A stretch of 64,000 nucleotides of DNA, taken from Methanolobus tindarius DSM 2278. Its GTDB lineage: Archaea > Halobacteriota > Methanosarcinia > Methanosarcinales > Methanosarcinaceae. The notes under the pieces are model-generated. The model had not been told where the DNA came from and ran no database searches. It saw nothing but the letters and a program-made list of their open reading frames with translations. Of the stretch, positions 3,952 through 15,560 are shown in pieces; position 1 is the first letter of the stretch; each line of letters opens with the position of its first letter. Where the stretch lies: the NCBI RefSeq assembly GCF_000504205.1, contig NZ_AZAJ01000001.1, forward strand, positions 248,001 to 312,000, given 5' to 3'. The position numbers and the translations under genes are program-made.

Positions 3952-5127
3952 CTATTCAAATTCCATGCTTGCGTATGCAGGTGTATCGGAAATGGTCAGC
4001 ATAGTCTCAAAAACGGACTTTCCTTTTTCTTCATCGCCTTCGCATACAAGGAATCCATAGATCTCTGCAGCTTTATCCTCAACTGTAACATCTTCAAACT
4101 GTTCCGGGAAGAGAATAGTTCCTGCAAAGTATGCATCTACAAGTGCAGTATCAGGGTTGTGTGAGTAGAACTTGTAAGGCAGCACTCCGTAAACATTTCC
4201 ATTCTGGAATGCTGAAAGCTGGTGGTAGGTTTCATCATGTTCAAGCTGGTAAGGGGCGTAATTCTCTCCATAGAACATGCTGGGTCGCAGTTCTAAAAAT
4301 ATGATTTCAGGGTCCCATACAAGTATGCTTTCTTTTGAGACTTTCTCCACGCTCATATTGTCAGGATTATATGCTACGTTCTTTGCGTTGATGAAATAGA
4401 GTGAAGGATGATGTGAGTCGGTATTCAGGAAATCGTATGAACCGGAACTACCTACACCACCGGCATAACATGATATCTTCTCTTCATCGGGCACATCTAC
4501 TGTACGTTCATTGAGGTCTGCTATCTCTGCATCCATAAAAGATATTACTTCTTCAGCTCTTTCCCCTTTATCCATTACCTCACCCATTATGCGAAGTACC
4601 TGGTACATGTCTTCTCTTTCTTCTACCATGTCCCCCTCTGCGAGTGCAACCACAGGAATACCTGTTTTGTCCTGTAATTCATCAGGGTCGTATCCGTCTG
4701 CTGCATATATCTGGAAAATGACTTCCGGTTGTGGGTCAAGGGTCAGAATAGCTTCAAGGTTCTCGCCTCCGTATTTACCAAAGGTTGGATAGTCCTCAAA
4801 ATAGTTGTTTGCAACAGCGTATGCTTTGCCCACAGATACTTTGTATTCCATGCTGTCAACTGCGACAATCTTGCCCTGTGCTTCAAGGTATGTAAGGTAT
4901 CTAAGTGCACCACCGCCTGAACAAATTACAGCCCCAGGATTTTTTGGCACATCAACCGTTCTCCCTACTGAATCTGTTACAGTAATTGTTTTTGATTCCG
5001 TTATGGCTTCTTCCTGTGCCTGGATGCTTTGGGGCGCAACATCATCATCCACACATCCTGAAACAAAGGCTGAAACCATAATTAGTGCGATTAAAAAAGT
5101 TACTGGAATTTTTTTGCTTCCACTCAT
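3952..5127 (-). CDS. FecB-type substrate-binding lipoprotein of a metal-chelate importer
   Basis: A 391-aa extracytoplasmic binding protein (periplasmic binding protein family PF01497) that would capture an iron complex, heme or corrinoid and deliver it to the FecCD permease. The N-terminus is a lipoprotein signal: basic SGSKK, a hydrophobic run, then the lipobox VSGC. The domain begins at TITVTDSVGRTVDVPKNP, typical of the family. I chose the ATG at 5127 because AGGAG lies seven bases upstream; the in-frame ATG at 5145 would place the ribosome-binding site inside the gene. It heads the operon with the permease at 2865-3929. A short run of TCTA repeats spans its stop codon. The upstream region carries inverted repeats that may be operator sites. 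Confidence 0.93.
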   Translation of the reverse strand: MSGSKKIPVTFLIALIMVSAFVSGCVDDDVAPQSIQAQEEAITESKTITVTDSVGRTVDVPKNPGAVICSGGGALRYLTYLEAQGKIVAVDSMEYKVSVGKAYAVANNYFEDYPTFGKYGGENLEAILTLDPQPEVIFQIYAADGYDPDELQDKTGIPVVALAEGDMVEEREDMYQVLRIMGEVMDKGERAEEVISFMDAEIADLNERTVDVPDEEKISCYAGGVGSSGSYDFLNTDSHHPSLYFINAKNVAYNPDNMSVEKVSKESILVWDPEIIFLELRPSMFYGENYAPYQLEHDETYHQLSAFQNGNVYGVLPYKFYSHNPDTALVDAYFAGTILFPEQFEDVTVEDKAAEIYGFLVCEGDEEKGKSVFETMLTISDTPAYASMEFE

Positions 5128-14302: not shown

Positions 14303-14554
14303 AAATTCTTCTCCAGTATATGGTTTACAATCTAACATATTTATACATACTTCAGTTATGTGGACAGACCATGTATTTTATATATTAGAATACATAATAA
14401 TAAATATATTAAACATGTGTTGATGTAAAACAGACTAATTATTCAATAACAGAGACAGCACAAATAATAAAATATCCTTAAAAACGCAATTAATGAAGCT
14501 CCCAATTTGTTAGAAACAAAAAGTACCCAAAACACAAATATCTATATATATTTT

Positions 14555-14594
14555 ACAGATATAAATAGATTATATGCATCTTGTATATATCTGT
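14555..14594. promoter_or_regulatory. Palindromic promoter region of the small-gene operon
   Basis: The 336-bp gap from 14303 to 14638 holds no gene. Within it ACAGATATA (14555-14563) and TATATCTGT (14586-14594) are perfect 9-bp inverted arms, and a further ATATCTATATATA lies at about 14539-14551. The left arm overlaps a good TATA box (TATAAATA near 14560), which would place the start point near the right arm and give a leader of about 50 nt to the first small gene. A repressor covering both arms would block initiation. The rest of the gap is very AT-rich and contains the promoter for the leftward DUF362 gene. Confidence 0.45.
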
Positions 14595-14638
14595 GCATGG
14601 AGTATTAGAGTTTGAGAAAAGAAAAAAGGAGAGAAAAA

Positions 14639-14800
14639 ATGAAAAATATAAAAAAGTGTATGGAAATATATGCAAATTCCACAATAGGCGCATCAGAAGC
14701 CGGTCTCAAGCTGATAAAAAACGGTCAGTATAGAAACAATATGGATGAGGAAGACATAGAGTTTGCACGTTTCATGATAGGTGGAATGGGTGCAAAATAA
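14639..14800 (+). CDS. Small protein of unknown function, 53 aa
   Basis: A 53-residue protein that begins MKNIKKCMEIY and ends FARFMIGGMGAK. The ATG at 14639 has AGGAG seven bases upstream, which is why I reject an upstream start at 14612 that would bury the site. It has one cysteine, a basic N-terminus and an acidic middle (NNMDEEDIEF). I do not recognise the family. It is first in a run of three tiny genes on the + strand with strong ribosome-binding sites, and sits behind a palindromic promoter. Small size lowers certainty, but the ribosome-binding site and the linked genes argue it is real. Confidence 0.65.
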   Translation: MKNIKKCMEIYANSTIGASEAGLKLIKNGQYRNNMDEEDIEFARFMIGGMGAK

Positions 14801-14846
14801 AGCAGACATATAGACCATATTTGCCAATTTTAAGCGTGGGAGAAAC

Positions 14847-15014
14847 ATGAAAATAGAAGAAAGTCTGTGCTGTGAATTTTGCAATACCGAACTTAAGAGA
14901 CAGCTGATAGGATCAAATGTATTCTACTACTGTAAGGATTGCGGAAGGATTACTTCCGCAAAAGATCTGGTAACAATCAGAATAAACGATGATGGAGTAA
15001 AAGCATGTGTATGA
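14847..15014 (+). CDS. Small zinc-ribbon-like protein, 55 aa
   Basis: A 55-residue protein with two CxxC pairs: C9-E-F-C12 and C29-K-D-C32, spaced 16 residues apart, the layout of a minimal zinc ribbon. The C-terminal third (LVTIRINDDGVKACV) looks like a beta hairpin. The ATG at 14847 has GGGAG five bases upstream. The stop TGA at 15012-15014 overlaps the ATG of the next gene (ATGA), showing translational coupling. Such proteins often bind nucleic acid or a partner protein; no function can be assigned. Confidence 0.7.
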   Translation: MKIEESLCCEFCNTELKRQLIGSNVFYYCKDCGRITSAKDLVTIRINDDGVKACV

Positions 15015-15184
15015 TAGAGGAACTTGGGTATTCTGAAGAAAACAAAAAAATATACTGTACAAGCTGCATTATTTTCCAGAAAACAGGGAAATGCGAATTC
15101 CTGAACTACCTTGAATCAAAAATAACTGCAGATCTTAACAATGAGTATTTTCAGGAAATATTAATAGATGATTGCGGATTTTAA
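15011..15184 (+). CDS. Small cysteine-rich protein, 57 aa
   Basis: A 57-residue protein with C16-T-S-C19 and C28 in YCTSCIIFQKTGKCEFL, and C55 near the end, together enough to bind one zinc or form disulfides. The ATG at 15011 lies in the stop of the preceding gene. The C-terminal half, FLNYLESKITADLNN, is probably helical. It is the last gene of the three-gene operon and is followed by a hairpin. Its family is not known to me. Confidence 0.68.
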   Translation: MIEELGYSEENKKIYCTSCIIFQKTGKCEFLNYLESKITADLNNEYFQEILIDDCGF

Positions 15185-15201
15185 TACTGAATAAAACCGC
15201 A
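15173..15201. terminator. Imperfect hairpin at a convergent junction
   Basis: TGCGGATTTTA (15173-15183) pairs with TAAAACCGCA (15192-15201) with one bulged base. It overlaps the stop of the 57-aa gene and lies just before the convergent gene ending at 15213. T-rich sequence follows on the + strand. It probably terminates the small-gene operon. Confidence 0.45.
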
Positions 15202-15212
15202 GTCAATTTATA

Positions 15213-15560
15213 TTATTCTATGAACCAATCCACGTAAGCAAGCAGCTCTTTTTTATCCCAATTATCAATCTTTTGTGGACTATCGTTACGACTTCCGCCA
15301 AATACATCCGATTTTTGGTTATCATCAAGAACATGAACTTTGTATTGTCCTTCATCACTATCACGGATAAAATATCCAGGACTCATTGATTCCGATTTTT
15401 TCCACATACTGATTTTAGAATAATCCCACAAACAGTTTGCCCATTCTGCCATTTTTTCAATATGCTCGTCTTTCACATCCACAATGTCACCCATAATGAC
15501 ACAATGCATTCCATTACGTGTAAGTTCCATGCTATTGTGAGTTCTTACTATCAAGTCCAT
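15213..15560 (-). CDS. Hypothetical protein, 115 aa
   Basis: A 115-residue soluble protein I do not recognise. It starts MDLIVRTHNSMELTRNG, has an acidic central helix (KDEHIEKMAEWANCLWD) and ends in WDKKELLAYVDWFIE. It is rich in Trp and Asp and has no signal peptide or membrane segment. The ATG at 15560 has a weak GGGAT six bases upstream. It lies between the cdh terminator and the small-gene operon on the strand of the cdh operon, but the terminator in between suggests separate transcription. Confidence 0.62.
   Translation of the reverse strand: MDLIVRTHNSMELTRNGMHCVIMGDIVDVKDEHIEKMAEWANCLWDYSKISMWKKSESMSPGYFIRDSDEGQYKVHVLDDNQKSDVFGGSRNDSPQKIDNWDKKELLAYVDWFIE

Follow-up and report, generated by a model that had tools for sequence, protein, structure and literature searches.

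Comparison with relatives shows that three very small genes of Methanolobus tindarius DSM 2278 form a genuine operon-like array that is translated, is under purifying selection and occupies a fixed place in Methanolobus. We put at roughly 40% the probability that the array is a lineage-restricted operon of metal-binding small proteins together with an adaptor peptide related to a neighbour of sufS, and that it works as a module tuning sulfur or metal handling. The array lies in a 64,000-nucleotide stretch, here called the window, of a genome of 3.15 Mb in a single contig. The closest named relatives, in a search with the gene 3 protein alone, were Methanolobus vulcani and M. profundi; other genera of the Methanosarcinaceae are labelled g6, g7, g9, g11 and so on. 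The features, in window coordinates, are as follows.

14542-14592, + strand: conserved promoter block, made up of CTATATA (14542-14548) and ATATAAATAGATTATATGCATCTTGTATATATCT (14559-14592), with candidate TATA boxes; from 25 aligned Methanolobus upstream regions.
14639-14800, + strand: gene 1, 53 aa; C-terminus RFM(I/V)GGxx(A/G/S)K; paralogue of a sufS-linked small gene; dN/dS 0.06-0.30.
14847-15014, + strand: gene 2, 55 aa; predicted C4 zinc ribbon with C9, C12, C29 and C32 invariant; dN/dS 0.04-0.21.
15005-15184, + strand: gene 3, 59 aa; MCxIExxGYS..NK..YCxxCIIF..GKCEYL, with C2, C18, C21 and C30 conserved; dN/dS 0.01-0.10.
15164-15211, + strand: 3' hairpin, probable terminator, overlapping the last codons of gene 3; z = -4.0.

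The three consecutive ORFs on the + strand reported in the initial annotation were all found again, as were the Shine-Dalgarno sequences described for the first two (GGAG at 14628-14631 for gene 1 and GGGAG at 14838-14842 for gene 2). The lengths originally given, 53, 55 and 57 codons, hold for genes 1 and 2, but gene 3 has 59 codons. Genes 2 and 3 do overlap, although not by an ATGA with a start at 15011 as first proposed; the overlap is 10 nt (ATGTGTATGA), and we place the gene 3 start at 15005 on the strength of an N-terminal Met-Cys (positions 1-2) shared by 23 relatives without exception. These relatives span six genera, and the Met-Cys is also found in genera in which genes 2 and 3 do not overlap. 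With this start, C2 becomes a fourth conserved cysteine of gene 3. The end of gene 2 (Cys-Val-stop) shares its bases with the gene 3 start, so its conservation need not be functional. The hairpin said to end the operon was confirmed (-17 kcal/mol, with no shuffled sequence equally good); it is common to close relatives, and in the more distant genomes it is weak or differs.

Short ORFs are easily spurious, and conservation here might be due to RNA or promoter sequence, with the ORFs themselves untranslated. We consider this extremely improbable, given that synonymous change far exceeds non-synonymous change in all three genes (the dN/dS values above are against six relatives), that starts, Shine-Dalgarno sites and cysteines are conserved, and that Rfam gave no match. 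The initial annotation would have been abandoned had neither the cysteine patterns nor the gene order been conserved and had both classes of site diverged equally; relatives in fact keep both patterns and order, with strong suppression of non-synonymous change.

The intact triad was present in the same order in 21 of the 27 Methanolobus genomes. Of the 27, 26 carry the operon copy of gene 1, and nearly all have genes 2 and 3 in unchanged order. One genome, 70% complete, did not have the locus (G048), and five had a lost, truncated or frameshifted member (G041, G042, G049, G050 and G051), which makes the operon dispensable in some lineages. In Methanolobus it is flanked by a DUF362-ferredoxin gene on one side and by the acs/cdh (CODH/ACS) operon on the other. 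The order is a ZPR1-like gene and the divergent DUF362/4Fe-4S gene, then genes 1-2-3, then the convergent ORF115, cdhE, cdhD, cooC and cdhC, and it is constant in both Methanolobus and genus g11. ORF115, a 115-aa frame between the operon and cdhE (15213-15560, - strand), is retained by nearly all Methanolobus and by g11 genomes and has no Pfam or NCBIfam match. Genus g11 also carries an extra small gene, ending EYFTC(I/V)DD(V/I)NF, which comes after gene 3 or, behind gene 1, takes the place of genes 2 and 3 (L097, reverse complement 3979-4140; L091; L093); in one g11 genome, G065, a different small gene stands behind gene 1 in place of genes 2 and 3.

This fixed neighbourhood, combined with the sequence features of metal binding, could mean that the small proteins help Ni/Fe-S insertion or regulate the acs/cdh products in the manner of CooT/CooJ. 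We judge such an accessory role improbable. The operon is convergent with cdh and lies outside the cdh operon. Its homologues are far from cdhE in g7, g9 and g10, and on other contigs in g14 (for example 1.607 Mb versus 0.411 Mb in G029, and 1.792/1.799 versus 1.502 Mb in G032). Growth of Methanosarcina on acetate depends on CODH/ACS, yet our search for relatives found gene 3 absent from Methanosarcina. Since there is no cdh linkage outside two genera, and members are broken in the five Methanolobus genomes, a core role in CODH assembly is unlikely. The linkage to CODH/ACS is thus a feature of Methanolobus and g11, not of the small-gene system as a whole.

Upstream of gene 1, the initial annotation had described a 9-bp inverted repeat, ACAGATATA/TATATCTGT, and a tightly controlled promoter. 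The repeat is present (14555/14586), but it is neither above chance nor kept in relatives: 0.25 such repeats are expected in a spacer of 25% G+C (P = 0.14), the window holds 43 of them, and relatives retain one arm or neither. A palindromic operator was therefore rejected; the exact repeat has few genomic sites, near the control count, and is not conserved. A different element, CTATATA at 14542 with ATATAnATAGATTATnTGCATcttgTATATAT at 14559-14592, averaged 1.17 bits per column, versus 0.59 in the flanks, across 25 Methanolobus genomes. The block comprises more than a TATA box alone and may include a regulator site. A search of the genome for its regulon gave only its own site and one site with two mismatches. 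The claim of tight control had been based on the non-conserved palindrome. The conserved block occurs essentially once in the genome and so revealed no regulon.

The C9xxC12 and C29xxC32 motifs first noticed in gene 2 are present and invariant in 13 aligned sequences, and the protein is predicted to fold around one Zn2+ as a C4 zinc ribbon. The C16xxC19/C28 pattern noted for gene 3 is real in the 57-codon frame but is not the full set, which comprises C2, C18, C21 and C30; through these four the protein would bind a metal or an Fe-S cluster. The label of small zinc proteins, earlier applied to the operon, suits gene 2, and by sequence only; in gene 3 a single CxxC is accompanied by two lone cysteines, and gene 1 lacks any conserved cysteine. 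The overlap of genes 2 and 3 implies co-translation and thereby suggests that the two act together.

Gene 3 appears from its alignment to be a previously undescribed MC...CxxC...C family, with convincing relatives in six Methanosarcinaceae genera only and a poor AlphaFold model (pLDDT 58). In five genomes of g10 (for example L083) a TAG closes gene 3 after 39 codons; similarity to the profile extends a few residues past it. Neither gene 1 nor gene 3 had an informative match in Pfam, NCBIfam, PHROGs, PADLOC, Rfam or PDB, and our literature search found no paper describing any of the three genes. Defence or phage genes were considered as well, with no match for the small genes.

Small ribbons related to gene 2 occur in tandem in Methanosarcina and also beside ppdK. 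The tandem genes were seen in Methanosarcina and g2 (L166 3692-4172; L089 831-1106), and the ppdK-side paralogue at G000:C1:2723247-2723354 (L171). The two arrangements point to small zinc ribbons as a wider family. They also lend something to a reading that makes gene 2, together with gene 3, a small factor associated with transcription or translation, like Fin or the zinc-finger micro-proteins of Haloferax, with gene 1 as a bystander. Gene 2 has a weak, below-cut-off similarity to eL43/L37a-type and other zinc ribbons, and such micro-proteins have pleiotropic phenotypes in H. volcanii (PMC6562870). We find this reading doubtful, as binding of nucleic acid or RNA polymerase by gene 2 is purely putative and the retention of gene 1 as first gene in several genera is unexplained for a bystander.

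Gene 1 belongs to what is, on the evidence of profile searches, a previously undescribed family of about 50 residues ending in FM(I/V)GGxx(A/G/S)K. The family was detected in 104 of 112 Methanosarcinaceae genomes; in a sample of the phylum it occurred in 62/393 genomes, all of them Methanosarcinaceae, and in 0/331 others. Two types of copy were found. The commonest, present in most Methanosarcinaceae genera, has its stop codon 40-46 nt upstream of the start codon (ATG) of a SufS-type cysteine desulfurase (47 of the 50 copies scored for spacing), and the alignments show gene 1 to be a paralogue of this sufS-linked protein. The second type heads small zinc-ribbon operons, as a gene 1-gene 2 pair in g7 and g10 and as gene 1-gene 2-gene 3 in Methanolobus, g9 and g11. 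In the window genome itself the second gene 1 copy (G000:C1:983099-983257, L101; stop TAG) is directly upstream of a SufS-type desulfurase. The leader AGAGACAGGAGG before the sufS-linked gene 1 is strikingly conserved, the gene 1-sufS pair being found in most of the genera. One copy (L095 2577-2729, in G047:C27) appears to be a recent duplicate with similar upstream sequence and without genes 2 and 3.

Conservation in gene 1 is highest over the last ~15 residues, including the final Lys, with F45, G48, G49 and K53 invariant (window numbering), and the N-terminus is variable. The AlphaFold model, of low confidence (pLDDT 67), consists of a short beta-hairpin and a C-terminal helix. No cysteine was invariant among 37 aligned members, which means that gene 1 cannot serve as a persulfide carrier in the manner of SufE/SufU. 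The desulfurase beside the paralogue scored 410 bits against TIGR01979, the best of all families although below the cut-off of 475, and carries the active-site Cys motif ICVRSGYHCAMP. Genera g6 and g8, and other families too, have SufS but no gene 1; gene 1 is therefore not needed for SufS and, because SufS is more broadly distributed than gene 1, their co-occurrence gives no independent support for a link.

The spacer between the sufS-linked gene 1 and sufS contains an inverted repeat, TGCAGG/CCTGCA, that spans the gene 1 stop codon, with a T-tract behind it. Over 27 sequences, 95.1% of cells were paired and two pairs were changed on both sides, above slid controls. In L102 (4280-4341), for example, the repeat overlaps the apparent sufS core promoter; the two-sided compensations are in G004 and G072. 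A repeat of this kind, the constant distance to sufS, the invariable position of gene 1 as first cistron and the conservation of its C-terminal end could all reflect a regulatory leader peptide, controlling sufS or gene 2-gene 3 through ribosome arrest or in response to a metabolite. We think this rather unlikely. Genera that have neither gene 1 nor the repeat keep the T-tract block (L181-L186), which sits where a leaderless promoter would, ~26 nt upstream of the sufS start codon, and L116 and L163 keep the right half of the repeat without pairing. Moreover, the stop codon varies (TAA, TAG or TGA), no such hairpin lies between gene 1 and gene 2 in the window copy, and some copies have no obvious downstream gene (L095 and L117). 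The GGxxK end is conserved in operon copies that do not have the sufS-side repeat, so that selection acts on the gene 1 peptide itself.

Persistence of the block without gene 1, and of the right half without pairing, makes the block at least a leaderless-type sufS promoter. Leaderless transcripts are 15-16% in M. psychrophilus (PMC5378194). Thus sufS probably has its own promoter, conserved where gene 1 is absent, and nothing here implies that gene 1 and sufS are co-transcribed. Hairpin and promoter functions may overlap in this spacer.

We return to the reading that we prefer, a module for sulfur or metal tuning. Gene 1 would be a short adaptor, docking on a larger partner through the conserved C-terminal helix of the model. 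The sufS-linked copy might act on SufS or on its sulfur supply, and the operon copy might co-operate with the putative metal-binding proteins 2 and 3. The module would tune sulfur or metal handling with no catalytic step of its own. SufE/SufU sulfur carriers are rare in methanogens (PMC8351635), which leaves a SufS partner missing there. It is conceivable, if a long shot, that gene 1, together with its sufS-linked paralogue, represents a new, non-cysteine class of SufS partner specific to the Methanosarcinaceae, replacing SufE/SufU, with genes 2 and 3 receiving and passing on the sulfur or metal cargo.

Genes 1 and 3 represent two families, under strong selection in one of the major families of methanogens, for which neither Pfam nor NCBIfam has an informative entry. 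The gene 1 family is a concrete candidate for routing sulfur from cysteine without SufE/SufU, and one that is testable in the genetically tractable Methanosarcina. If unrelated to sulfur, the operon would still be a clear case of overlooked methanogen small proteins.

Among known systems, the closest kind is, for gene 2 only and by its sequence, the archaeal zinc-finger micro-protein, known in Haloferax volcanii as HVO_2753, HVO_0758 and others (PMC6562870, PMC13370731). Gene 2 fits the C(P)XCG type, having 55 aa (the limit is 70 aa) and two conserved CxxC motifs; like the Haloferax proteins it is archaeal, shorter than 70 aa and free of other domains. Unlike them, it is encoded in a conserved operon with two small genes, one of which has no conserved Cys, and it has no above-cut-off match to a named family. 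Genes 1 and 3 fall outside the definition, gene 3 having one CxxC plus C2 and C30. With eL43/L37a, Fin and Zn_ribbon_6, gene 2 shares the C4 zinc-ribbon spacing, at a similarity that is weak and below the cut-off. The operon resembles CooC, CooT and CooJ in that metal-related genes stand beside CODH genes, but no similarity to these proteins was found and its cdh link is limited to two genera.

SufE and SufU resemble the gene 1 family as small proteins encoded beside a SufS-type desulfurase, which is true of the sufS-linked paralogue and not of the window copy. They differ in that the gene 1 family is ~50 aa long, has no conserved cysteine and matches neither in sequence. ISD11 is the LYR-motif partner of the desulfurase NFS1. 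Like ISD11, gene 1 is a small non-catalytic protein tied to a desulfurase, in its case by position, and LYRFM occurs in many sufS-linked copies; unlike in ISD11, the motif lies within the C-terminal 15 residues, and the Methanolobus operon copies do not have LYR there. No statistical match to ISD11 stands behind this likeness.
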